A DNA stretch of 60,544 nucleotides from a candidate division WOR-3 bacterium (GTDB lineage Bacteria > Hydrothermota > Tepidihabitantia > Tepidihabitantales > Tepidihabitantaceae): assembly GCA_039801245.1 (NCBI GenBank), contig JBDRUF010000004.1, forward strand, positions 1-60,544, in the 5' to 3' direction. The first letter of the stretch is position 1. Each line of letters begins with the position of its first letter. A program made the translations under genes and the position numbers. The notes beneath the pieces are model-generated. The model was not told where the DNA came from and did no database searches. It worked only from the letters and a program-made list of their open reading frames with translations. Of the stretch, positions 1 through 47,630 are shown piece by piece.

Positions 1-16
1 GAGTCATTATTGATTT

Positions 17-47
17 GTCTGAAACCTGTCCCTGACTTAAAAGGGAT
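17..47. repeat. 31-bp direct repeat, copy 1
   Basis: The 31 bases here recur exactly at 98-128 (core GACTTAAAAGGGAT). The 3' half of the unit recurs a third time at 564-580. This is a short intergenic repeat of unknown function; three copies do not make a CRISPR array because spacing is irregular (about 50 and 435 bp). Confidence 0.85.
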
Positions 48-97
48 TGCGACTTCCAAACCAGTCGCAAGCCTCAACCCAAGCCGCTTTGGTTTCC

Positions 98-161
98 GTC
101 TGAAACCTGTCCCTGACTTAAAAGGGATGTTAAGTCCGTGCCCGTGACCGTTGACCGTAAA
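98..161. repeat. 31-bp repeat copy 2 joined to 51-bp direct repeat copy A
   Basis: Bases 98-128 duplicate 17-47. Bases 111-161 form a 51-bp unit (ending in GACCGTTGACCGTAAA) that recurs identically at 564-614. The two 51-bp copies bracket the small gene at 179-523, and copy A ends just before its Shine-Dalgarno AAGGAGG. Confidence 0.85.
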
Positions 162-178
162 ATGAAAAGGAGGACTAT

Positions 179-523
179 ATGAGAGTTGAGGACCTGGATG
201 TTTTTAAGTTGTCACATAAGTTGTCGCTTGAGGTCTATAAGTTAACCGAGAGGTTCCCTGAGAGCGAACGGTTCGGGTTGACTGTGCAGATGAGGCGAGC
301 GGCGGTCTCCATTCCGATGAACCTAATGGAGGGTGCCCATCGGGTGAGCAAGCGGGAGTTTCAACATTTTGTGAGTATAGCAAAAGGTTCCTGTGGCGAG
401 ATAAGGTATCAGCTTTTATTAGCAAAGGACCTTAAATATCTTAAAGAAGAGCAGTATAACGAACTGGAAAGTGAGTATGAGCGGGTAAGTATGATGCTTA
501 CCAAACTTCATAAGTCCCTATAA
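179..523 (+). CDS. Four-helix bundle protein (S23 / 23S rRNA intervening-sequence type)
   Basis: A 114-residue, charged, all-helical protein matching the S23/IVS four-helix bundle family, which folds as a small bundle and is often found as stand-alone genes or inside 23S rRNA intervening sequences. Its molecular function is not established. Visible family features are the N-terminal DLxVxKxSHKL stretch, the central QMRRAAVSIPMNLMEGA segment (about 38-54) and a C-terminal helix. The ATG at 179 follows AAAAGGAGG at a good distance. No rRNA lies nearby. The gene sits between two identical 51-bp direct repeats (111-161 and 564-614), which suggests it was carried or duplicated with repeat DNA. Confidence 0.85.
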   Translation: MRVEDLDVFKLSHKLSLEVYKLTERFPESERFGLTVQMRRAAVSIPMNLMEGAHRVSKREFQHFVSIAKGSCGEIRYQLLLAKDLKYLKEEQYNELESEYERVSMMLTKLHKSL

Positions 524-563
524 AGTGCGGAAGCCGGTAAACGGACACGGCTAACGGCTTTCT

Positions 564-614
564 CCCTGACTTAAAAGGGATGTTAAGTCCGTGCCCGTGA
601 CCGTTGACCGTAAA
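564..614. repeat. 51-bp direct repeat copy B
   Basis: Identical over 51 bases to 111-161. It lies 40 bp after the four-helix-bundle gene and runs straight into a REP-like tract at 615-730. Confidence 0.85.
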
Positions 615-730
615 TGGAAAAGGGATTCCTCCGCTTCGGTCGGAATGACGAGGAGGCAAGCGCGGAATGACAGAAAGGGATTTCTCGACAAGCTCGAAAT
701 GACAGAATCGGCTGCGCTCGGAATGAGAAT
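615..730. repeat. REP-like dispersed repeat tract with GGAATGAC motifs
   Basis: Contains GGAATGAC at 642-649 and 664-671, and near-copies CGAAATGAC at 695-703 and GGAATGAG at 719-726, with GATTCCTCCGCTTCGGTCGG at its left edge. Related sequence occurs at 10135-10270 (inside the 5' end of ftsW) and 47575-47630. Read on the minus strand it encodes V-I-P-T-E-A-E-E-S, close to the FtsW extension. The 250-bp interval 524-773 holds only repeats and a promoter. Confidence 0.7.
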
Positions 731-738
731 GGGGCAAG

Positions 739-767
739 TTGCCCCGCCCATTTCTTTGTTGTAATAT
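739..767 (+). promoter_or_regulatory. Putative promoter of the radical SAM gene
   Basis: TTGCCC (739-744), a 17-bp spacer and TAATAT (762-767). The ATG at 774 is only 6 nt downstream of the -10 box and no Shine-Dalgarno is present, so the transcript may start at or near the start codon (leaderless). Confidence 0.45.
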
Positions 768-773
768 AAATAT

Positions 774-1652
774 ATGGTCTGTAACGCCTGTCCTTTTGAG
801 TGTAATATTGACCGCGCGGTGAAGCCGGGCAGGTGCCGGGCAACCGACGAGATTGAGATTGCGCAGGCGCAACTCCATTTCTGGGAGGAGCCGCCCATCT
901 CTGGCACCCGCGGCTCGGGCACCATCTTTTTCTCCCATTGCAACCTGCGCTGCAGGTTCTGCCAGAACTATGACATCTCCCAGGAGGGGTTTGGTAAGAG
1001 GGTGAGCCCGGAAAGGCTTTTGGAGATTATGCTCAATCTTGAAAGGCAGGGCGCACACAACATCAATCTGGTCTCCCCAACCCATTACAGCCTGCAACTG
1101 CTGCCGGTGTTAAAGAGGGCAAAAAAGGAACTGAAAATCCCCTTGCTCTGGAACTCCAATGGCTATGAGAAGGTGGAGACCCTGCGCCTTTTTGATGGTG
1201 TTGTCTCCATCTATCTCCCGGATTTGAAATACTTTTCTGATGAACTTGCCCAAAAATTTTCCTCTGCCCCGAACTATTTTAAATACGCATCGCAGGCAAT
1301 TTTGGAGATGAAGCGGCAGGTGGGGAGAAACATTTATGACCGGAATGGGATAATCCAGCAGGGGCTAATCATCAGACATCTGGTCCTGCCCGGTCAGATT
1401 GAGGACTCAAAGAAAATCCTCTCCTGGATTAAGGAGAACCTTGGTGTTGATACCCATATCAGTTTGATGGCGCAGTATTATCCAACCTATCGGGCAGGCG
1501 AACTGCCCGGAATGAACCGGCGCCTCTTGCCATCGGAATATGCTGAGGTGAGGGCTTATTTTGAGAGCCTGGGGTTTGAACAGGGCTTCTGTCAGGAACT
1601 TTCATCAGCCTCGCCCGATTTCACCCCCGATTTTGAGGGCAAAGGGATATAA
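774..1652 (+). CDS. Radical SAM protein, PflA/PflX-like (COG1313 type)
   Basis: A 292-residue radical SAM protein. The [4Fe-4S]-binding CxxxCxxC motif is Cys56-Cys60-Cys63 (CNLRCRFC), after the family's GTIFFSHC lead-in, followed by CQNYDIS. An N-terminal cysteine group (Cys3, 6, 10, 21) is typical of this COG1313 subfamily and may bind a second metal. Later conserved stretches are NLVSPTHY and RHLVLPG. The family resembles pyruvate formate-lyase activase, but its substrate is unknown here and no glycyl-radical enzyme lies nearby. The ATG at 774 has no ribosome-binding site. purF follows 41 bp downstream with its own promoter-like sequence. Confidence 0.85.
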   Translation: MVCNACPFECNIDRAVKPGRCRATDEIEIAQAQLHFWEEPPISGTRGSGTIFFSHCNLRCRFCQNYDISQEGFGKRVSPERLLEIMLNLERQGAHNINLVSPTHYSLQLLPVLKRAKKELKIPLLWNSNGYEKVETLRLFDGVVSIYLPDLKYFSDELAQKFSSAPNYFKYASQAILEMKRQVGRNIYDRNGIIQQGLIIRHLVLPGQIEDSKKILSWIKENLGVDTHISLMAQYYPTYRAGELPGMNRRLLPSEYAEVRAYFESLGFEQGFCQELSSASPDFTPDFEGKGI

Positions 1653-1659
1653 ACTGAAT

Positions 1660-1687
1660 TTGCATTCTAAGTATTGGTGGTTAAAAT
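1660..1687 (+). promoter_or_regulatory. Putative promoter of purF
   Basis: TTGCAT (1660-1665), 16-bp spacer, TAAAAT (1682-1687). The purF ATG (1694) is 6 nt after the -10 box with no Shine-Dalgarno, again compatible with leaderless transcription. Confidence 0.45.
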
Positions 1688-1693
1688 AGTTTT

Positions 1694-3202
1694 ATGTGCG
1701 GTGTCTTAGGTCTTTTTAACTACCAGCAAGAGGTTGGACCAGAACTGGTTGAAGGGCTGCTCGCACTTCAGCACCGGGGTCAGGATTCTGCCGGTATTAT
1801 GACCTCTGATGTTACCCTGCATCTGAAGAAGGGAAACGGCTTGGTGAGCCGGGTTTTTAATGAGAAGAACCTTGCCCGGCTGACCGGCACACTTGGCATC
1901 GGTCATACCCGGTATCCGACAATCGGACCGGGCTCAAGCGAGGACGCCCAGCCATTTTATGTGAATCACCCTTATGGTATTGCGATGGTGCACAACGGGA
2001 ATCTGACCAATTACTTTCACCTGCGCCAGGAACTGGAGACAAAGGACCTGCGCCAGTTGTCCAGTTTCTGCGATGTTGAGCCGATTCTCAATGTGTTCGC
2101 CCTGGAACTGGAGCGCGCCCGCGCGATACCGCTCAAACCGGAGCACATCTATCAGGCGGTCAAGGGTGTCTTTCGCCGGGCAAAGGGTGCCTATTCGGTT
2201 GTCGCCCTGATTCATCAGCAGGGGTTAGTTGCCTTTCGTGACCCGAAAGGGATAAGACCGTTGGTTATCGGCAAACGCCCGGTCTCCATTAAGCCTGATG
2301 TCACCAGTATGCGCCAAAGCGCATTGAGAAAAAGACCGATTTACGAGTATTGCATCGCCTCGGAAAGTGTGGCGCTTGACCTTTTAGGGTTTGATGATTT
2401 CCGAGACATTAATCCGGGTGAGGTAATCTTTATTGACCGGCACCATCACCTGCATCATCACCAGATTGAACAGGGTGACCTGCACACCTGTATCTTTGAA
2501 TATGTCTATTTTGCCCGTCCTGACTCGGTGATAGACGGCATTGAGGTCTATTCTGCCCGGCTCCGCCTTGGTGAAAGGCTGGCAGCCGAGGTCAAGCGAG
2601 CAGGTCTGGAGCCTGATATTGTGATCCCCGTGCCTGATACCGCCCGTCCTGCCGGCGCTGCTCTGGCAAAGGTGCTTGGTCTGGAGATGAGGGAAGGATT
2701 GATAAAAAATCGCTACATCGCCAGAACCTTTATCACACCAAGAACGGTCAACCGTGCAGCATCGGTGCGCCAGAAACTTAATCCGGTCCGATCCCAGATT
2801 CAGGGTAAGGATGTGCTTTTGGTTGATGATTCTATCGTCCGTGGTACAACCTCAAAGGAGATTGTCCAGTTGGTCAGGGATGCGGGTGCCCATCGGGTTT
2901 ATCTGGCAGTAACCGCGCCACCATTGCGTCACCCTTGCGTTTATGGAATTGATATGATGACCCGCGGGGAGTTCATTGCCAAAGGCAGGACCGTGGATGA
3001 AATCCAAAAGATTATCGGCGCTGACGCCTTAATCTATCAGACATTTGATGGGCTCACTAAAGGTGTCCAGGGTGAAAATGGTAATCGGAAATTCTGCACC
3101 GCCTGCTTTAACGGCGATTATCCGACTGGAATAAGCGAAAGGGATTTAAGACAACTTGAAGCCGAGCGCCAGCGCTGGATTAAGAAACAGGTTAAGGCAT
3201 AG
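1694..3202 (+). CDS. purF: Amidophosphoribosyltransferase (PurF)
   Basis: Catalyses the first committed step of purine synthesis, converting PRPP and glutamine to 5-phosphoribosylamine in the cytosol. At 502 residues it has the usual length. The N-terminal glutaminase domain starts MCGVLGLF, so Cys2 becomes the nucleophile once Met is removed, and HRGQDSAG follows. The C-terminal phosphoribosyltransferase domain carries the PRPP loop VLLVDDSIVRGTT (about 375-387). Cysteines in CIFEYVYFARPDS, RHPCVYG and FCTAC match the four [4Fe-4S] ligands of the Bacillus-type enzyme, so an oxygen-sensitive cluster is likely. There is no propeptide, unlike in Bacillus. It is convergent with ftsZ. No other pur gene adjoins it, though purA is elsewhere in the window. 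Confidence 0.97.
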   Translation: MCGVLGLFNYQQEVGPELVEGLLALQHRGQDSAGIMTSDVTLHLKKGNGLVSRVFNEKNLARLTGTLGIGHTRYPTIGPGSSEDAQPFYVNHPYGIAMVHNGNLTNYFHLRQELETKDLRQLSSFCDVEPILNVFALELERARAIPLKPEHIYQAVKGVFRRAKGAYSVVALIHQQGLVAFRDPKGIRPLVIGKRPVSIKPDVTSMRQSALRKRPIYEYCIASESVALDLLGFDDFRDINPGEVIFIDRHHHLHHHQIEQGDLHTCIFEYVYFARPDSVIDGIEVYSARLRLGERLAAEVKRAGLEPDIVIPVPDTARPAGAALAKVLGLEMREGLIKNRYIARTFITPRTVNRAASVRQKLNPVRSQIQGKDVLLVDDSIVRGTTSKEIVQLVRDAGAHRVYLAVTAPPLRHPCVYGIDMMTRGEFIAKGRTVDEIQKIIGADALIYQTFDGLTKGVQGENGNRKFCTACFNGDYPTGISERDLRQLEAERQRWIKKQVKA

Positions 3203-3244
3203 GTCAAGGGAAAGAATTCTCAGCCTCGACCTCAACCTATGCCT
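3195..3244. other. Inverted repeat between convergent purF and ftsZ
   Basis: AGGCATAGGT (3195-3204, overlapping the purF stop codon) is perfectly complementary to ACCTATGCCT (3235-3244, just beyond the ftsZ stop). It could fold in either transcript and act as a two-way terminator or 3'-end stabiliser, but the loop is 30 nt and there is no T-run, so terminator function is only a possibility. Confidence 0.4.
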
Positions 3245-3246
3245 AA

Positions 3247-4341
3247 TTAATCCAGCTGCCTGCGGATAAAGGTTGGTATCTCCAGGTCAGATTTGTCTAT
3301 TAAAGGCTCGCCTTTACCACCTGAGCGCCGTTTCAATGGAATCAGCTCGGTTGAGGTGATGAACTCGGTAATATCCTCAAGTTTGGGCAATGGCTCATTA
3401 AGACCGGTGGCAATCATCGTTACCTTCATTGCCGATTTTAGAGTGTCCAGCCGCGCCGCTCCCATCCTGATATCCGCCTGCCCATTGGTGGCGTGATAAA
3501 TAATCTGCGCCGCCTCATCAACCTCCTTGAGCGTCATCGACTCATCTCCCGAGATGTTTAACAAAACCCGCCGGGCACTTTCAATTGACACATCCTCAAT
3601 CAATGGTGAACGCAGAGCCCGGTGCGCCGCCTCTGTTGCCCTGCCTTCCCCGCTGGCGATGCCGACAGACATTACCGCTCCGCCGCGCTCGCGCATCACC
3701 GTTCTCACATCGGCAAAGTCAATGTTGATGAGTTGCTTGGTGGTGACAATCTCTGAGATGCTGCTAACCGCATGCAACAGAACCTCATCTGCGAGCCGGA
3801 ACGCCTCAAAACAGGGCTGGGCACCATAAACCTCCAGAATGCGCTGATTCGGTATGACAATCAGGGTGTCAACATTTGGACGGAGGGCATCAATCCCTGC
3901 CTGCGCCTTCTCCTGTCGCTTGCGACCCTCAAATTCAAATGGACGGGTGACAACCGCAACAACCAGTGCACCTTGTTGTTTTGCCTCCTGGGCAACAACG
4001 GGTGCGGCACCGGTACCGGTCCCACCACCTTCGCCCGCGGCAATAAAGACCATATCAAATCCGGCAAGGTTCTCTCGGAGTGTTTGTATTGACTCCTCTG
4101 CCGCCTGCCTGCCAATCTTCGGGTCCCCGCCCGAACCAAGCCCACCAGTCAACTGGGCGCCAATCTGAATCTTGTTGGGGGCCAAGGACATCCCCAGCGC
4201 CTGCAGGTCGGTGTTTACGGCAAACAGTTCCACGCCGTTCAGGCGGGCAAGAGCCATATGATTAACCGCATTGCATCCTGCACCACCAATCCCAAACACG
4301 CCGATGCGTGTGAGGTTTCTTTCCTCTACCGGTTCAATCAC
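3247..4341 (-). CDS. ftsZ: Cell division GTPase FtsZ
   Basis: Tubulin-like GTPase that assembles the Z-ring. At 364 residues it shows the nucleotide-binding IGGAGCNAVNHM segment near the N-terminus, the tubulin signature GGGTGTGA (about 105-112), the T7-loop region NIDFADV, and a C-terminal tail ending DLEIPTFIRRQLD, the conserved peptide that binds FtsA and other partners. The start is GTG at 4341-4339, preceded by AAGGAGG. It is the last gene of the dcw cluster, 67 nt after ftsA. The gap contains an ACTAAAAACTATAAACT-type sequence related to the 5' end of murG. Confidence 0.97.
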   Translation of the reverse strand: MIEPVEERNLTRIGVFGIGGAGCNAVNHMALARLNGVELFAVNTDLQALGMSLAPNKIQIGAQLTGGLGSGGDPKIGRQAAEESIQTLRENLAGFDMVFIAAGEGGGTGTGAAPVVAQEAKQQGALVVAVVTRPFEFEGRKRQEKAQAGIDALRPNVDTLIVIPNQRILEVYGAQPCFEAFRLADEVLLHAVSSISEIVTTKQLINIDFADVRTVMRERGGAVMSVGIASGEGRATEAAHRALRSPLIEDVSIESARRVLLNISGDESMTLKEVDEAAQIIYHATNGQADIRMGAARLDTLKSAMKVTMIATGLNEPLPKLEDITEFITSTELIPLKRRSGGKGEPLIDKSDLEIPTFIRRQLD

Positions 4342-4408
4342 CTATGCCTCCTTTTTGATAGTTTATAGTTTTTAGTTAGTAGTTGGTAGTTCAAAAACCA
4401 ATAACTAA

Positions 4409-5635
4409 TCATGAAAACCAGCCTTTAATCTCATCCCAGAGACGCTGCCCCAAGCTTGGGGGCGGCAACTGGTGAAACTGGTTAGCCCTGCCCTCAACCG
4501 CACAACGAATCAGCCCTACCGCGGTGGCAAACGCCGGGTTGGCAACCACCTCTTTGGGACCATTCACCCGTTCTGGTCTTCCAACCTTTACTGGCATCCC
4601 AAAAATCTGCTCAGCAAGGATGTCAATCCCAGGCAAGAGCGCGCCCCCACCGGTGAGGATTACACCGCTCGAGAGCCCATCAGCCAATTGGGATTTGCGA
4701 ATCTCACTGTCGGCAAGGTTCAAAAGCTCCTCGACCCGTGGCTGAATGATGGACGCCAAAAGCCGCCGGGAAACCTGTTTTGGTCCCCTGCCTGAGGCAT
4801 CAGCAATTGTCAGCGGTTCATCCCGTTCAATCATACTGGCCAACGCCACCCCGAATTGGCGTTTGACCGCCTCCGCCTCTTGATATGATGTCCGCAAACC
4901 AATCGCCACATCCTTAGTGATGTTTTGAGCACCCACCGGCAGCATCTTGGTAAATCTGATCTCCCCTTCTCGATAAAGGGAAATATCCAATACCCCACCG
5001 ATATCAACAACCGCTACACCCAAATCCTTTTCCTCTTCATCACAAACCGCAAAGGATGTCGCCAGCGATCCCAGGATGAGAGAACGGTTTTTGAGGCCGA
5101 TTCTGTCTAAGACCCGGTAGGTGTTCTCAATCGCGGTAACCGCACCGATGATTAAAAGCGCCTCCACCTCCAGTCGGATCCCAAAAAGCCCAATGGGGTT
5201 GCGCACACCCTTCTGACCATCAACAATGAACTGAGTGGGAATGCAATGGAGTATCCCCTCGTCCGAGGGTAAGCGGATGGTCTGAGCCTGACGAATCACA
5301 TCACTGACATCACGGGGCTGAATACCACGGGTGGGACGCGCCACGGGTACCGCACCAAGACCCGATAGGTGCTTGATGTGGTCGCCGGTAATGCTCGTAA
5401 ACACCGGACAGGCACCAAAGCGGCACTGCGCCATCCTCTCAGCCTCCCCAATCGCACCCGCAACCGATTCGGTCGCTTTGTCCAGGCTCGTGACCACCCC
5501 AAGCCGGAAACCATCAGGCGGCGCGGTGCCAAACCCCTTTATCTCGGTCTTGCCCATCCCATCCACCTCCGCAATGAGGCAGGCAATTTTCGTTGCACCA
5601 ATATCAATCGCGGCAAGACGTTTTATTTTTGCCAT
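4409..5635 (-). CDS. ftsA: Cell division protein FtsA
   Basis: Actin-fold protein that tethers FtsZ to the membrane. The start chosen is the ATG at 5635, preceded by AAAGGAGG that overlaps the murB stop; this gives 408 residues starting MAKIKRLAAIDIGATK. A longer in-frame reading adds 19 residues lacking family character. The phosphate-1 loop is DIGATK, an adenosine-type motif TGGGALLPG lies near residue 335, and the C-terminus ends LWDEIKGWFS, an amphipathic membrane-targeting helix. The phosphate-2 loop reads DIGGVLDIS, one residue shorter than the usual DIGGGTTDI, so ATP binding may be altered. Thermotoga FtsA also departs from consensus here. Confidence 0.95.
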   Translation of the reverse strand: MAKIKRLAAIDIGATKIACLIAEVDGMGKTEIKGFGTAPPDGFRLGVVTSLDKATESVAGAIGEAERMAQCRFGACPVFTSITGDHIKHLSGLGAVPVARPTRGIQPRDVSDVIRQAQTIRLPSDEGILHCIPTQFIVDGQKGVRNPIGLFGIRLEVEALLIIGAVTAIENTYRVLDRIGLKNRSLILGSLATSFAVCDEEEKDLGVAVVDIGGVLDISLYREGEIRFTKMLPVGAQNITKDVAIGLRTSYQEAEAVKRQFGVALASMIERDEPLTIADASGRGPKQVSRRLLASIIQPRVEELLNLADSEIRKSQLADGLSSGVILTGGGALLPGIDILAEQIFGMPVKVGRPERVNGPKEVVANPAFATAVGLIRCAVEGRANQFHQLPPPSLGQRLWDEIKGWFS

Positions 5636-5639
5636 AAGA

Positions 5640-6554
5640 TTACCTCCTTTCTGGACCGACCGGCAAAAACCGGACCTCCTCCTCCAGCTCAATCCCTGTC
5701 CTCTCTTCCACCTCTGCCTTGACTATCTGCGCCAGTTCATACACATCGCCAAAACGGGCAGAACCTTTGTTCACAATAAAATTGGCATGGAGTTCGGAAA
5801 TACAGGCATCACCAACCCTTAAGCCCTTTAAGCCGCACTCCTCAATCAATCTTCCCGCAGGGATCCCAGGCGGGTTTTTAAAGAAGGAGCCGGCTGATGG
5901 TTCTGGGGGGTGTTTTGACCTGCGCTCTTCTCGAATTGCTTTAACAGGCTTGGTCTCACCCTTTGAGAGAATCAAAACCAGCCGTAATGCCCAGAACTCA
6001 CCGGGAATAACTGGCTGGCGGTATTGGTTTTTGAGCTCTTCTTTCCTCAACACCCTGATGTTGCCGATAGCATCCATCACTGTTACCTCAAGGGTGATCG
6101 CTGACAGACTTTTCCCATACGCCCCGGCATTGGTCACGAGTCCTCCCCCCACTGTTCCCGGAATCCCGGCTAAAAATTCCGCACCGGCAAGCCCGTTTGC
6201 CTCGGCAATTTCACTAATATCATCAAGACTGGCCGCAGCACCAGCCATTATCTTATCCCCCTGAACATCAATAAGACCGAATTCACCCCCAAGTTTCACC
6301 ACCACCCCAGGTATGCCCTGGTCGGAAATTAAGACATTTGTCCCTTTCCCTAAAATCTCCACCAAGAGCCTGTTTTCGGTACAGAACTGACGAACTTTTC
6401 TTAAACCCAGCTCCTTATTTACAACAACCATTAATGCTGCTTTACCCCCTATGCGGAAACTGGTATGTTGGGCAAGGGGCTCATCAGGAACTACGAACGA
6501 GTCGCTTCCCTTTAAAATCTCCTTTAGACGGTAACACCACTCCCCTGGTCTCAT
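5640..6554 (-). CDS. murB: UDP-N-acetylenolpyruvoylglucosamine reductase (MurB)
   Basis: FAD- and NADPH-dependent reductase making UDP-N-acetylmuramate, the second committed step of peptidoglycan precursor synthesis. At 304 residues it shows HTSFRIGGKA, the FAD-binding FLAGIPGTVGGGLVTNAGAYG region (about 124-144), and SAGSFFKNP with the catalytic Ser, followed by ELHANFIVN. The compact C-terminal half resembles the short type II MurB of Gram-positives rather than the E. coli form. The ATG overlaps the murC stop (ATGA). The gene is directly followed by ftsA; the usual ftsQ is absent. Confidence 0.95.
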   Translation of the reverse strand: MRPGEWCYRLKEILKGSDSFVVPDEPLAQHTSFRIGGKAALMVVVNKELGLRKVRQFCTENRLLVEILGKGTNVLISDQGIPGVVVKLGGEFGLIDVQGDKIMAGAAASLDDISEIAEANGLAGAEFLAGIPGTVGGGLVTNAGAYGKSLSAITLEVTVMDAIGNIRVLRKEELKNQYRQPVIPGEFWALRLVLILSKGETKPVKAIREERRSKHPPEPSAGSFFKNPPGIPAGRLIEECGLKGLRVGDACISELHANFIVNKGSARFGDVYELAQIVKAEVEERTGIELEEEVRFLPVGPERR

Positions 6555-7927
6555 TTTAGCCTCGCTAATATCTCATCAGCAAGAAGGGTAATGCTCCCCG
6601 CCCCAAGTGTTAGCACTACATCATTCTCTTTGAGGCGTGGGAGAAGAAAATCTAAAACATCCTGCAACTCGGGGACGTGATAGAGGATAAGGTCTTTTTT
6701 GCCAAGTCTTTTAATTGCATCAATGATCAAAGTTTCGTCAACGCCGGGTATCGGCGGTTCTGCTGCTGCATAGATTCCTGTTATTACCACCTCATTTGCC
6801 TCATCAAAGGCTGTCCCAAAATCATTCGCCAAGAGTTTGGTCCTGGTGTAGCGATGGGGTTGGAAGACAACAATGATTCTGTTATCTGGGTAGGCGCGAC
6901 GTAAACTCTTGATAGTAACCGCAATCTCTGTAGGATGGTGACCATAATCGTCATACACCACAATTCCTCTCGCCTCCCCTTTTTTCTCGAGACGGCGATG
7001 TACCCCGGCAAATGTCGCCATTGCCTGCCCGATTCTCGCAAAGTCGATTCCTAATTCCATCCCTACCGCTATGGCTGCCAAGGCGTTCTGAATGTTGTGG
7101 AGCCCTGCCATTCCTAAATTGTATCTGCCAACATCCTTACCTTGATAGACCAAGGTGAATGCCGAACTGAAACGATAAAGAGAAACGTCACGAACAGTCA
7201 GGTCTGCCTGTGTTTCGAGAGCATAAGTAACAACTCTACGCTTTACCCTGCTGCGAATTTGGCGGACAGCAGGGGAATCAAGGCAGAGGATAACCGTGCC
7301 GTAAAAGGGAACACGGTTAACGAAACGGAGAAACTCCTTCTTCAGGTCGTTGAGATTGTGGTAATAATCAAGATGCTCGGGTTCAATATTGGTAACGACA
7401 GCAATTGATGGATACAACAGTACAAAGGACCGATCGCTCTCGTCTGCCTCCGCAACAAGATACTCCGACCTCCCCACCCGGGCACCAGCATTGGCGCCTA
7501 ATATTCTCCCGCCAATTACTGCAGTCGGGTCAAAGCCAACACGGGTAAGGATGTGGGTAACAAGGGAGGTGGTGGTGGTTTTGCCATGACTGCCAGAAAT
7601 GGCGATCGAGAATTTGAGCCGCATCAGTTCGGCAAGCATCTCTGCCCTTTTGATTACCGGGACTCCTTTGCTAAGAGCATACTGGAGTTCGGGGTTATCC
7701 TGGGGAACCGCAGTTGAATAGACCAACACCTCTGCATCAAAGCAATTTTCTATTTTATGACCGATATTGACCTTGATTCCTTTGGTTACGAGTAGACGAG
7801 TGATGTCGGACTCTTTTAGGTCTGAACCAGAAACCTCAAAGCCCAATTCCTTTAATAGGAGCGCGATACCGGACATTCCTACGCCACCGATGCCTACAAG
7901 ATGAATGCGTTTTAGCCTACCGAACAT
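6551..7927 (-). CDS. murC: UDP-N-acetylmuramate-L-alanine ligase (MurC)
   Basis: ATP-dependent ligase that adds L-Ala to UDP-MurNAc. It has the family length of 458 residues. It shows the N-terminal HLVGIGGVGMSGIA Rossmann motif, the ATP loop SGSHGKTTTTSLV (about 112-124), EADESDRSF, and NIEPEHLDYY. The C-terminal domain has DDYGHHPTEI and FQPHRYTRT. It overlaps the murG 3' end by 16 bp and murB by 4 bp, so translation is probably coupled along the operon. Confidence 0.96.
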   Translation of the reverse strand: MFGRLKRIHLVGIGGVGMSGIALLLKELGFEVSGSDLKESDITRLLVTKGIKVNIGHKIENCFDAEVLVYSTAVPQDNPELQYALSKGVPVIKRAEMLAELMRLKFSIAISGSHGKTTTTSLVTHILTRVGFDPTAVIGGRILGANAGARVGRSEYLVAEADESDRSFVLLYPSIAVVTNIEPEHLDYYHNLNDLKKEFLRFVNRVPFYGTVILCLDSPAVRQIRSRVKRRVVTYALETQADLTVRDVSLYRFSSAFTLVYQGKDVGRYNLGMAGLHNIQNALAAIAVGMELGIDFARIGQAMATFAGVHRRLEKKGEARGIVVYDDYGHHPTEIAVTIKSLRRAYPDNRIIVVFQPHRYTRTKLLANDFGTAFDEANEVVITGIYAAAEPPIPGVDETLIIDAIKRLGKKDLILYHVPELQDVLDFLLPRLKENDVVLTLGAGSITLLADEILARLK

Positions 7928-9015
7928 ACCGCTTTGGATTTTTGGTTATTACGAGATAAGTCGGCGATTATCGCTTGAGCAATTGTGTGCGCACCATCAG
8001 GATGGGCGAGAGTGCGCGCCCTCTTTGACATTTCAAGAAGTTTCTGTGTGTCAAAGACGAGATTCTGAATAATATCTGGGAGTCGTGAGAGATCCGCCTG
8101 GGAGAGTCGCAGCGCTGCGCCGTTCGATTCAAGGTAACGGGCGTTGGCATCCTGGTGGTTATCACGAGCATGGGGAAAGGGAATTACCACTAGCGGAATG
8201 CCGAAAAGGAGAAGTTCGGATAGAACAAGACCTCCAGCACGGGTGATCGCGAGAGAAGCCTGTATGTAGAATTCTTCGGGATGGTCTGTCCATTGGACGA
8301 GTTCACAGTTAGAAGGTGGGTTAAGGTTTTTGAGTGCATGATAATCACGCCTGCCGGTGAGAAGGATGAAACGGAGATCTTTTAAGAGCGCTGCCATTTT
8401 TATTGCAGCAATGTTTAATGGACGGGCACCTTGACTGCCACCAAGTATAAGGACAGTCCTGTCAATCCTACCATGAGTGGGGGGATACGAAAATTCTTTA
8501 GCTTTCTGGATGATGCTTTTCCTGAGAGGAGTGCCGGCAACGGTGAAAGGAACGGGAAAGTGTGATTGTAAGGGAAACGTCAGGAAGGTTTGGCGGGCAT
8601 AAGGGGCAAAGAGTCTCACCACCCTGCCGGGTATGCGGTTCTGTTCAAGAAGATAGAAAGGAACCTTTTTTATCATTGCCGCGAGGAGAAGCGGCGCGCT
8701 GACATAGGCGCCTGTGGCAATCACCCCTTTAGGCTGAAGGCGATTGATGAGTGCTATGCTCTGAAGAAGACCAGCGAGGGCTGAGGGGAGTCTGCTAATC
8801 GCTGAGGGTAGTGGAAAGGCATTAATTGGGTGAAATTTGAACTTATTCTTCGAAGCAATCCCCTTTTCCAGACCTGAGTTCCTGCCTACCCAAATAATTT
8901 GCGCCCCGATGGTGCGCAATTCAGTGGCAAGCGCAAGTCCAGGAAAGATGTGCCCACCGGTTCCCCCGGCACATAAAATTAGTTTATAGTTTGCAGTTTT
9001 TAGTTGGAGACTCAT
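7912..9015 (-). CDS. murG: Lipid II synthase glycosyltransferase MurG
   Basis: Peripheral inner-membrane GT28 enzyme that transfers GlcNAc to lipid I to make lipid II. At 367 residues it shows the glycine-rich AGGTGGHIFPGLALA loop (about 16-30), the second GGSQGARPLN loop, and the donor-binding TRAGGLVLSELLLFGIPLVVIPFP region. The first 12 codons (MSLQLKTANYKL) are encoded by sequence resembling a repeat also present between ftsA and ftsZ (4360-4390), so the N-terminus may have grown by repeat insertion. It is 3 nt downstream of ftsW. Confidence 0.95.
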   Translation of the reverse strand: MSLQLKTANYKLILCAGGTGGHIFPGLALATELRTIGAQIIWVGRNSGLEKGIASKNKFKFHPINAFPLPSAISRLPSALAGLLQSIALINRLQPKGVIATGAYVSAPLLLAAMIKKVPFYLLEQNRIPGRVVRLFAPYARQTFLTFPLQSHFPVPFTVAGTPLRKSIIQKAKEFSYPPTHGRIDRTVLILGGSQGARPLNIAAIKMAALLKDLRFILLTGRRDYHALKNLNPPSNCELVQWTDHPEEFYIQASLAITRAGGLVLSELLLFGIPLVVIPFPHARDNHQDANARYLESNGAALRLSQADLSRLPDIIQNLVFDTQKLLEMSKRARTLAHPDGAHTIAQAIIADLSRNNQKSKAVCSVG

Positions 9016-9018
9016 AGT

Positions 9019-10299
9019 TCAAGAACGGAAACGAAGAGGTAACGGTTGAAGTTTAGGTAGAGGATTAGGATTCTGATAGCGGGAAATATTTAATATTAAA
9101 CCAGCCGCAAGGAGATTGCTGGTTAGTGCCGAGCCTCCATAGGAGATAAAAGGCAAAGGCTGACCAGTCGTTGGCAAAATGCTTAATGAGACCGCAATAT
9201 GGGTAAGGGCATAAAGTATTATCATCGTGCCTATCCCGCCACTTAGGAGCATGCCGAATTCGGTAGTAGCCCTTTCGGCAACGCGCAGACATCGAAGGAA
9301 GAAAAGCACATAAAGAAGCATCACTAAGAAACAGCCTGAAAAACCAAAGTCCTCCCCGAGCGCAGAGAAGATAAAGTCTTTGTGAAGTTTGGGGATGAAG
9401 TAATATTTCTGCCTCCCCTCACCAAGCCCCCTGCCAAATGGTCCACCTGAACCTAAGGCGATGAGCGCCTGAGTCTGATGATAACGGTCACCAGACCAGA
9501 ATTTATCCCAACGTTCTGGGATGTAGCGATATCTGGTGTTACGAAGAAGGGGCATTGTTGTCAGACCAATAGCGCCAAGCAACCCCGCAATACTTAAGAT
9601 TACAAGCATGTACCGCCACTTGACACCAGCGAGGAAAAAAACCACAAGAGCGGATATCGAAATTAACAGGCTGGTACCAACAGCGGGTTGGAGGAGCACG
9701 AGACAGGCTACGGTGGCAACGGCTGAACCAGGAATGAGGGTAGATTTTATAAAGCTAGGTCTAATACTCTCCTCCTTGAGGGCTGAGAAGTAGGCGGCAA
9801 GGTAGATGAGCGTACCGAGTTTAGCAAATTCTTGAGGTTGAAATAGGAGTATCTGCCGTCTGGCAACACCCAGGACCTTGCCGAAGAACAGCGTAAGCGC
9901 CATTAAGGCAATGGTCATAAGGAGGATAACCCAAGCGACAGGTTTTTGACCAAGCCGGTGGATGTTGATTTTTGTACCGAGGTAGAGGGCAAAAAGGCCT
10001 CCCAGTCCCCTGAGAAGTTGCCATTTTAAGTATCGGAATCCCAAGTGGTATGTAGCGGCATACACCAAAATAAGTCCGATGAGTACGAGGGTTACTACGA
10101 TGAAAAGCAAGGGGTAGTCAATTGGAGATTGAGGGAGGGGCCTGCCCCGAGCGAAGGGATTTCTCCACTCCCCGAATCCTGCCCTGATGGAGGAAATCCC
10201 TCGAATCGCCTTCGCTTCGCTCGGAATAACGGAAGTCGAGACACCTCGACCTGAATGACCGAAGTCGACGGGTGGAGGGTTATAGTTTTTTGACCTCAT
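9019..10299 (-). CDS. ftsW: SEDS peptidoglycan glycosyltransferase FtsW (repeat-extended N-terminus)
   Basis: Polytopic SEDS-family lipid II polymerase that works with FtsI at the septum. The ATG at 10299 lies inside the murD 3' end and follows a weak GAAAGG; this gives 426 residues. Residues about 57-420 carry ten or so hydrophobic segments. Signatures include RRQILLFQPQEFAKL, FSALGEDFGFSG and the C-terminal TGQPLPFISYGGSALTSNLLA loop. The first 55 or so residues are unusual: they are a hydrophilic tract translated from REP-like DNA (10135-10270). No ATG or GTG lies in frame between the repeat and the first membrane segment, so the extension is probably translated unless an ATT or TTG start is used. 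Calling it FtsW rather than RodA rests on its dcw location. Confidence 0.92.
   Translation of the reverse strand: MRSKNYNPPPVDFGHSGRGVSTSVIPSEAKAIRGISSIRAGFGEWRNPFARGRPLPQSPIDYPLLFIVVTLVLIGLILVYAATYHLGFRYLKWQLLRGLGGLFALYLGTKINIHRLGQKPVAWVILLMTIALMALTLFFGKVLGVARRQILLFQPQEFAKLGTLIYLAAYFSALKEESIRPSFIKSTLIPGSAVATVACLVLLQPAVGTSLLISISALVVFFLAGVKWRYMLVILSIAGLLGAIGLTTMPLLRNTRYRYIPERWDKFWSGDRYHQTQALIALGSGGPFGRGLGEGRQKYYFIPKLHKDFIFSALGEDFGFSGCFLVMLLYVLFFLRCLRVAERATTEFGMLLSGGIGTMIILYALTHIAVSLSILPTTGQPLPFISYGGSALTSNLLAAGLILNISRYQNPNPLPKLQPLPLRFRS
10135..10270. repeat. REP-like repeat inside the 5' end of ftsW
   Basis: Contains CTTCGCTTCGCTCGGAATAA and CTCGACCTGAATGACCG, related to the tracts at 615-730 and 47575-47630. 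Read in the ftsW frame it gives S-V-I-P-S-E-A-K and, further on, E-W-R-N-P-F-A-R; the 615-730 locus gives V-I-P-T-E-A-E-E-S in the same orientation. The insertion keeps the reading frame open. Confidence 0.7.
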
Positions 10300-11656
10300 G
10301 TTTGAATGCCTTTCCCCGTTCTTGGAAGTCCACAAACATATCAAAGGAGGCATATCCCGGGGAGAATAGGACGATGTCGCCCTGACGGGCGATGGTGTAC
10401 GCCTCCAGGACAGCGGTACGCATTGTATAAGCGATTTTACAGCGTTGGTACCCCATTTTCATAAGGTTACGGGCAAGCCTGTCACTGTTTTCCCCTAAGA
10501 GAATCACCTGTTTTGCCTTCTTTTTAATCGCCCGAAGGTATGGGGTGTCCGGTAGGTTCTTCTCTTTGCCGCCACATATTAGTATGACCTTCTTTTTAAA
10601 AGCCATTAGCGACCGAACTCCCGCCTGAGGGTTGGTACACATTGAGTTGTTGATATAATAAACCCCATTAAGCTGTCTAACTAGTTCCAGCCTGTGCTGT
10701 AAGGGATGGAAGGTTTTTAAGCCTTGCCTTATGAGATGAGGGGGTACTCCACAGAGACGAGCACAAACAATTGCGGCAAGGGCGTTTTCAACCAGAGGGT
10801 TGAAGTGCGGGAGAAGACCAGGGACAGTGTTAATAGTTGCTATTGGAGCAATCTTTTCGCCACCAAAGTAGAAATGGTCGCGGATTATGTAAGCACAATT
10901 CGGCTCCCTCATTCCGGTTGGTTTGCGCGAAAAGAAAGCTCTCTTGGCTCGTACTGATTTTAAGATTTTTTTGGTAACAGTGTCATCTCTGTTAAGAACC
11001 GCCCAGTCCGAAGAAGTCTGGCGAGCGAAGATTTTTGCCTTTGTGCGCACATAATCAGTAAATGTCTTATGCCGGTTTAGGTGGTCAGGGGTGATGTTCA
11101 ATAGAACCGCAATCTTTGGGGCAAGAAAAATTGAGCGCTCAAGTTGAAATGAGGAAACCTCAACACAGTAGTAGTCCTTTGGAGGAAGAAGTAGCGCCTC
11201 TGAGAGTGGTCTCCCAGGAAGGATGTTGCCGCCGAGAAATACCTTTTCACCTGCGTGTTTCAAGAGCGCCGCAATCAGGGCAACGGTAGTTGACTTCCCA
11301 TTGGTGCCAGTAATAGCAATCACTTGACCGGGCAAAAACTGGCTGGCAAAATCAAGTTCATCAACCACTCTTAACTTTAACTTTCGGAATTCGGATATAA
11401 TTTTGTGGGTTTGTGGAAAGCCCGGGCTTGTAATAATGCCTGATAGGGGAGGATGAACGCCTGAGATGAAGGGTCTTAAGCCTTGTTGAATTAAAGATTT
11501 AACCGCAGGGGTTCGCCACACCATCTGATTATCGTCATATGCCCAAACCGAGGCATTTGCGTGGAGCAAAGCATTGGCTACCCCTCTGCCTGCCCTCCCA
11601 AGTCCAAGAACTAAAAAATGTTTTCCTTGGACGGTGGATATGAGTTTATCATTCAT
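10280..11656 (-). CDS. murD: UDP-N-acetylmuramoyl-L-alanine-D-glutamate ligase (MurD)
   Basis: ATP-dependent ligase adding D-Glu to UDP-MurNAc-L-Ala. At 458 residues it has the N-terminal VLGLGRAGRGVANAL nucleotide motif, the ATP loop AITGTNGKSTTVALI (about 114-128), a VEVSSFQLE motif typical of MurD, NITPDHLNRH, and the C-terminal NNSMCTNPQAGVRSL and ICGGKEKN segments. The last 20 bp overlap ftsW. A 45-nt gap separates it from mraY upstream. Confidence 0.95.
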   Translation of the reverse strand: MNDKLISTVQGKHFLVLGLGRAGRGVANALLHANASVWAYDDNQMVWRTPAVKSLIQQGLRPFISGVHPPLSGIITSPGFPQTHKIISEFRKLKLRVVDELDFASQFLPGQVIAITGTNGKSTTVALIAALLKHAGEKVFLGGNILPGRPLSEALLLPPKDYYCVEVSSFQLERSIFLAPKIAVLLNITPDHLNRHKTFTDYVRTKAKIFARQTSSDWAVLNRDDTVTKKILKSVRAKRAFFSRKPTGMREPNCAYIIRDHFYFGGEKIAPIATINTVPGLLPHFNPLVENALAAIVCARLCGVPPHLIRQGLKTFHPLQHRLELVRQLNGVYYINNSMCTNPQAGVRSLMAFKKKVILICGGKEKNLPDTPYLRAIKKKAKQVILLGENSDRLARNLMKMGYQRCKIAYTMRTAVLEAYTIARQGDIVLFSPGYASFDMFVDFQERGKAFKHEVKKL

Positions 11657-11701
11657 ATCTGATCTTTAAGGTTGATGGTGTAAACCTTAAACTTGACCTC
11701 A

Positions 11702-12790
11702 TCAGCGCACCTTCAATGTCGCCAGTGCTGCCATCGCCATCAGAACCGCAATAATGACAAATCTGGTGACAATCTTCGATTCCTGCCAACCTTTGAGTTC
11801 ATAGTGGTGGTGAAGTGGCGCCATCTTGAAAAGCCTTCTGCCGCCGGTGGAGTGGAAAACGACAACCTGCAGGAGTACCGAAACGGCTTCAAGGAGAAAG
11901 ACCCCACCGATAAGAGGCAGTAGGAGCTCATGCTTTGAGATAATCGCGGCAAGAGCAAGTGCACCACCCAGCGGTAATGAGCCGGTGTCGCCCATAAAGA
12001 TTTCTGCGGGATGTGCGTTGAACCAGAGAAAACCAAGGGTGGCGCCGGTCAGCGCAAGGCAGTAAACGGTCATCTCACCTGAAAAGGAAACATACTGGAT
12101 GTTGAGGTACTGGGCAATTTTGAAGTGCCCGGAAACATAAGAGAGAAAGGCATAGGCGCCAAGCGCCACCGCGAGTAAAGAGGCAGCCAGACCATCCAAC
12201 CCATCAGTTAGGTTGACCGCATTGGAGCACCCGATAATTATGAGGATAACGAGAGGAATGTAAAATGGGCCGAAGTCAATGAGGATGTTTTTGAAGAAAA
12301 GGAAGTTAGTTTTTGTTTTTAAGAATGGGTCGTTTGGAAAGAAGTAAAGGACCGCAGAGATACCGGCTGCGACCATAAGTTGAAACAGAAGTTTCGTGCG
12401 TTTTTTGATTCCCCGCGCCTTGCCTTTTTTGACCTTGACATAGTCATCATATAGACCCAATAGTCCAAGGAGAACAAGAAGCGCGATACCAAGTTGGACA
12501 CCCTGATTAGTTAGGTCCCCGAACAATAGAATGCCAAGGATTGCGGACACAAGGATTAAGACCCCGCCCATTGTAGGTGTCCCTGCCTTTTGCCGGTGCC
12601 TCTCTGGAACCTCTTCGCGGATATTTTGACCGAGTTGGAGTTTTTTGACCAGTTTGATTAGCGGAGCCCCAAGGATCAGAGTGAGGATTATTGCCGCGGC
12701 ACCTGCCATTGCCGCCCTGAAGGTTATATAGCGAAAAAGATTAAAGGGACTGTATATCCGAGCAAGTGGCGTCAAAAAGTGGTAGAGCAT
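11702..12790 (-). CDS. mraY: Phospho-MurNAc-pentapeptide transferase (MraY)
   Basis: Integral inner-membrane enzyme that moves phospho-MurNAc-pentapeptide onto undecaprenyl phosphate to make lipid I. At 362 residues it has about ten hydrophobic segments and the family motifs GTPTMGGVLIL, the Asp-Asp Mg site in LYDDYVKV, SNAVNLTDGLDGLA, FMGDTGSLPLGGALA and PLHHHYELKGW. It lies 3 nt after murE; in most dcw clusters murF would intervene here. Confidence 0.97.
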   Translation of the reverse strand: MLYHFLTPLARIYSPFNLFRYITFRAAMAGAAAIILTLILGAPLIKLVKKLQLGQNIREEVPERHRQKAGTPTMGGVLILVSAILGILLFGDLTNQGVQLGIALLVLLGLLGLYDDYVKVKKGKARGIKKRTKLLFQLMVAAGISAVLYFFPNDPFLKTKTNFLFFKNILIDFGPFYIPLVILIIIGCSNAVNLTDGLDGLAASLLAVALGAYAFLSYVSGHFKIAQYLNIQYVSFSGEMTVYCLALTGATLGFLWFNAHPAEIFMGDTGSLPLGGALALAAIISKHELLLPLIGGVFLLEAVSVLLQVVVFHSTGGRRLFKMAPLHHHYELKGWQESKIVTRFVIIAVLMAMAALATLKVR

Positions 12791-47574: not shown

Positions 47575-47630
47575 CCGAGCGAAAAAACAATGGATTCCTC
47601 CACTTGAGTCGGAACGACCGGAGCCAATGG
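47575..47630. repeat. REP-like repeat, third locus
   Basis: AATGGATTCCTCCACTTGAG and GTCGGAACGACCGG match the tract at 615-730 (GGATTCCTCCGCTTCGGTCG, GGAATGAC). It lies in the divergent region between porU and the beta-flower-like gene. Confidence 0.55.

Follow-up and report, generated by a model that had tools for sequence, protein, structure and literature searches.

The 5′ end of ftsW in this candidate division WOR-3 bacterium very probably carries a degenerate, two-unit insertion of a dispersed repeat resembling the CGTC-tagged REPs, set inside a cytoplasmic N-terminal tail of FtsW that was already there and that is variable and predicted disordered. The window analyzed, 60,544 nucleotides, comprises contig C4 in full; the genome (G000) totals 1.70 Mb in 70 contigs. 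Its closest relatives, used for comparison, are two congeners of other species (G001 and G002) and G003, G009, and G013 of the neighbouring genus. The preliminary description of this DNA held that a dispersed repeat had made the N-terminal extension of FtsW; we find the repeat in the gene, but the extension itself is older.

The ftsW locus and the FtsW tail

The ftsW gene lies on the minus strand directly 3′ of murD (10280..11656, minus strand), whose last 20 bases overlap the ftsW start. The open frame spans 9019–10353, and the favoured start in this frame is the ATG at 10299–10297, giving a coding sequence of 426 residues (9019..10299) that matches PF01098 (E = 3.1e-70). A weak Shine–Dalgarno-like sequence, GGGGAAAGG (-5.7 kcal/mol), is located upstream of this ATG. 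The first 59 codons (10123..10299, minus strand) form the N-terminal tail and precede the conserved IDY at which the first helix begins. The N-terminus of FtsW is cytoplasmic, and the tail is predicted to be disordered: the AlphaFold pLDDT is below 50 for residues 4–50 apart from isolated positions, and the membrane core is confidently modeled. A special RNA hairpin at the ftsW 5′ end was considered and rejected (folding z-score of -0.12), and positions 1–12000 of the window contain no Rfam matches. Two AT-rich, irregular TAGTTTATAGTTTTTAGTTAGTAGTT tracts that are 72% alike occur at 4359–4405, upstream of ftsZ, and at 8980–9026, around the ftsW–murG junction.

Repeat DNA in the FtsW tail

We searched ftsW with a 40-nt profile built from ~100 copies of the repeat, sister-genome copies included and ftsW masked. 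The profile matches in two places, on the same strand and in order: positions 10227–10199 correspond to model positions 4–32, and positions 10171–10154 to model positions 23–40. The first match is unit A (10193..10230, minus strand), GTTATTCCGAGCGAAGCGAAGGCGATTCGAGGGATTTC, which is read as VIPSEAKAIRGIS and scores 22.2 bits (E = 2.3e-4 genome-wide); the second is the 3′ half of unit B (10154..10171, minus strand), GGAGTGGAGAAATCCCTT, with 15.2 bits (E = 0.036). In 3000 dinucleotide shuffles, the best single match reached 10.9 bits and the best summed score 11.2 bits, and the reversed-genome control returned a single match, at E = 3.2. By BLAST, unit A shares 31 of 35 bases with G001 copies (E = 3e-6), and unit B is identical to several G001 copies at 18 of 18 bases. 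Next to unit B lies a tract, CGCTCGGGGCAGG (10141..10153, minus strand), that also adjoins the copies at C20:15807 and C48:12688 (BLAST E = 0.01 with C20).

The demonstrable repeat in ftsW amounts to ~56 nt (38 + 18) plus this 13-nt tract common to other copies. The ~45 repeat-built codons initially proposed are reduced to these pieces: codons 1–22 have no proven repeat match, and codons 7–22 and 37–42, about half of the extra tail, have no demonstrable one. Residues 20–55 include the peptide stretch STSVIPSEAKAIRGISSIR. A likeness to peptides from two intergenic tracts at 615–730 and 47575–47630 had been noted (V-I/V-P-T/S-E/Q), and it holds as VIPSEA / VIPTEA / VVPTQ because those tracts contain units of the same repeat family.

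A dispersed, structured repeat family

A first model, made from the copies of this genome, detects ~30 copies in the genome; the wider model, which includes sister-genome copies, yields the 40-nt consensus GTCATTCCGAGCGAAGCGAAGCGGAGTCGAGGAATCCCTT. The repeat is far more numerous in the sister species. Most copies in this genome lie between genes, outside conserved coding sequences. In the window, the intergenic tract at 614..726 (minus strand) contains two clear units and a weak one (614–649, 670–704, and 708–726; E = 6.7e-10, 1.1e-6, and 0.1), and a single intergenic unit is found at 47587..47614 (minus strand; E = 3e-4 with the own-genome model and 0.11 with the wider model). A head tag, CGTC or TGTC, precedes ATTCC in 16 of 18 seed copies as judged by eye.

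The repeat has a covarying stem. Across 37 different 26-mers, 94.6% of cells are paired, with 31 double changes, a result equaled by none of 500 shuffles and lost in slid controls. The stem comprises five pairs, G-A and A-G mismatches, one variable pair, and a 6-nt loop; its first pairs, A-U and U-A, are invariant in the 37 sequences, and compensatory changes occur at two inner pairs, with one further single case.

Intergenic arrays whose units alternate between minus and plus orientation occur in G001 and G002. At loci L188, L202, L203, and L206 of these genomes, such arrays recur every 2–4 kb between genes, and several loci are near-identical in layout. The neighbouring genus is nearly free of the repeat (no copies in G003 and G013, one in G009). 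In our genome, REP clusters are located near the ends of contigs C4, C41, C45, C48, C60, and C70; it is therefore probable that the assembly is interrupted at arrays and that ~30 copies is an undercount. Direct repeats of 61 nt, 97% identical, occur at 110–170 and 563–623 of the window (also 17–47 and 98–128). They flank a 23S_rRNA_IVP four-helix-bundle gene (179–523, PF05635, E = 1.5e-40) that adjoins the REP tract at 614–726, and this repeat-flanked gene may be a mobile or duplicated unit.

The tail is older than the repeat

The preliminary description had suggested comparing ftsW 5′ ends in related genomes, with an extension free of repeat similarity as the outcome that would speak against its reading. 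This is what we see. An ATG overlapping murD is found at the homologous place in all five closest relatives, which have tails of 39, 39, 31, 31, and 21 residues (G001, G002, G003, G009, and G013, respectively), against 59 here, the longest among the six close genomes compared. The repeat profile matches none of these five tails. The tails align at both ends: the start reads MRSKNY / MRSGNY / MRSGNW, and the junction with the first helix reads PLPQSPIDY here versus LPNSPIDY and RPNAPIDY in relatives. In a family-wide search, the FtsW query aligns only from residues 23–58 onward, and the five closest sequences of that search align from residues 48–54, that is, past unit A.

The relatives' tails lack repeat similarity, and the tail extension is therefore older than the repeat. 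We considered whether the congeners' tails are decayed copies of the same insertion and rejected this reading, as no profile match rises above chance. The G001 and G002 tails differ by six synonymous changes (28.7 sites) versus one nonsynonymous change (88.3 sites), an excess absent from the other two frames; thus, the tail is translated in the congeners. Judged from sequence comparison, the ftsW tail is old, translated, and variable, and in this species it houses the repeat. The net gain over the congeners is 60 nt, or 20 residues, whereas the repeat region spans ~90 nt, so an insertion accompanied by loss or divergence must be assumed.

Probable translation across the repeat

A reader of the locus could place the repeat in a 5′ leader, outside the protein, with translation starting late at a non-standard codon (ATT 10122 or TTG 10110) and the frame being open by chance. 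REPs situated at ORF N-termini are in many cases probably extragenic (PMC3733652), and ATG 10299 has no more than a weak to moderate ribosome-binding site. The frame is, as originally reported, open across the repeat. We nevertheless regard the leader reading as improbable, for three reasons. First, after codon 1 the next ATG, GTG, or TTG in the frame is TTG codon 64, which falls inside the start of helix 1, and the stretch from the repeat to the conserved PxxPIDY motif has none. Second, neither TTG 10110 (+0.7 kcal/mol) nor ATT 10122 (-1.5 kcal/mol) is preceded by a Shine–Dalgarno-like sequence. Third, ftsW begins at the homologous ATG in both congeners and in the neighbouring genus, coding constraint acts on the congener tail, and the G013 tail offers no alternative ATG, GTG, or TTG.

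A start downstream of the repeat, the outcome that the preliminary description had named as refuting its claim, is thus unlikely: it lacks a ribosome-binding site and runs against the conserved flanks. Translation in this species most likely runs through the repeat, since the conserved PxxPIDY lies beyond it with no ATG, GTG, or TTG in between. The suggestion of an in-frame, RPE-like insertion in an essential division gene stands in this form, and its translation is very probable.

Other in-frame copies

A genome search for further in-frame copies, also advised at the outset, uncovered two more conserved genes. At C12:13808–13837 (L057), a REP copy occupies the variable linker before the Por_Secre_tail domain of a 909-residue conserved exported protein. 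The linker reads GPVIPSEAEESLP; the copy itself gives VIPSEAEESLP, translated in the frame that yields VIPSEA in ftsW. At C20:15778–15806 (L065), a conserved small membrane protein takes its last residues and its stop codon from a copy, and it ends ACPERRERDSSASSE where orthologues end NRRR. In-gene copies in conserved genes total three genes of ~30 copies, all in a tail or linker, and each of the three has orthologues without the repeat insert. Six sampled repeat-bearing ORFs of G001 and G002 were set aside: they look spurious because they have no Pfam domain and several consist of repeats.

Comparison with known repeat systems

Most descriptions of REP insertions within genes come from Proteobacteria, above all Rickettsia. 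The preliminary description likened the ftsW case to the palindromic elements of that genus, and the parallel holds in part. In the Rickettsia palindromic elements of the RPE-1 type (Ogata 2000), inserts were found in 19 reading frames (reviewed in PMC2229807); as there, repeat DNA is in frame and tolerated within conserved proteins that have orthologues without the insert. The RPE, however, are 105–146 bp long with terminal inverted repeats, whereas the WOR-3 unit measures ~26–40 nt. The nearest class is instead that of the CGTC-tagged REPs, which include Rickettsia conorii RPE-4 and RPE-6 and Neisseria dRS3, admit TGTC and CCTC as variants of the head tag, have no dedicated transposase, and encode 20–30 residues as in-gene dimers (PMC3733652).

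The WOR-3 repeat shares with this class the CGTC/TGTC head, the A-T then T-A first stem pairs, and the C-rich end after the stem, as well as alternating units in clusters, a mostly intergenic location with occasional in-frame copies, and no dedicated transposase detected. It differs in its WOR-3 host, in the long alternating arrays of G001, and in its stem, which is imperfect with a 6-nt loop in contrast to the perfect 8–9 bp stem and 4–5 nt loop of CGTC-tagged REPs. We call it REP-like and not a member of the class because it lacks the uninterrupted 8–9 bp stem.

RAYT-linked (GTAG) REPs possess a RAYT and a terminal GTAG, and the WOR-3 repeat has neither: GTAG is missing at either end of the consensus GTCATTCCGAGCG...GAGGAATCCCTT, and searches with positive controls gave no match to the RAYT (Y1) transposase PF01797 in G000, G001, or G002. 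A RAYT was accordingly rejected as the mover of the repeat. The enterobacterial RU-1/ERIC and the Yersinia RU-2/YPAL are likewise intergenic repeats fused in frame to genes (PMC2229807), but by their description there they are longer (103–168 bp) and unrelated in sequence.

Repeats of this type in genes are already known (PMC3733652, PMC2229807). Our literature search for the repeat sequence, FtsW insertions, and WOR-3 palindromes returned nothing relevant, and the main text of PMC3733652 contains no ftsW case. None of the papers searched yielded the WOR-3 repeat family, the FtsW case, or comparative evidence that a tail was there before the repeat.

Proposed course of events and significance

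In the ancestor, a tail of 20–40 residues was already translated from the ATG overlapping the end of murD. The repeat, which presumably spreads as a non-coding intergenic element, would have entered the FtsW tail in frame after the split from the known congeners and expanded the existing, predicted-disordered tail to 59 residues. Read in this frame, the units contain no stop codon, and the tail does not depend on a fixed sequence or length. The insertion would have been tolerated because it altered neither the start site nor the PxxPIDY junction nor the transmembrane core. The presence of the repeat in FtsW is most likely neutral or slightly costly, and it may persist in the tolerant tail as nearly neutral baggage.

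The repeat-derived peptide could alternatively have been recruited and now be functional, perhaps in regulating FtsW or in binding a partner, and a frame open over 59 codons in the longest tail of six close genomes is in keeping with this. We give the idea very little credence: the segment is predicted disordered, degenerate, and confined to a single species, and the relatives lack it and have highly variable tails. Similarly very doubtful is the proposition that the stretch derived from the REP supplies an essential divisome enzyme with new functional tail sequence, as one instance of a general WOR-3 route by which such repeats would remodel protein termini and linkers. Chance resemblance of ordinary low-constraint coding DNA to the repeat is scarcely credible. 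Each piece is short and degenerate, but none of the 3000 shuffles reaches the scores, the two pieces lie in order on one strand with 27 nt between them, the reversed genome is empty to E = 3.2, and the relatives' tails do not match.

With a repeat insertion in a tail that predates it as the favoured reading, ftsW provides a REP-in-gene case from an uncultured phylum, in a presumed essential gene, where orthologues display both the repeat-free state and the ancestral start. The case cautions against automatically treating an N-terminal REP copy as an error in start-site annotation, and it illustrates that coding insertions survive in disordered tails and linkers.
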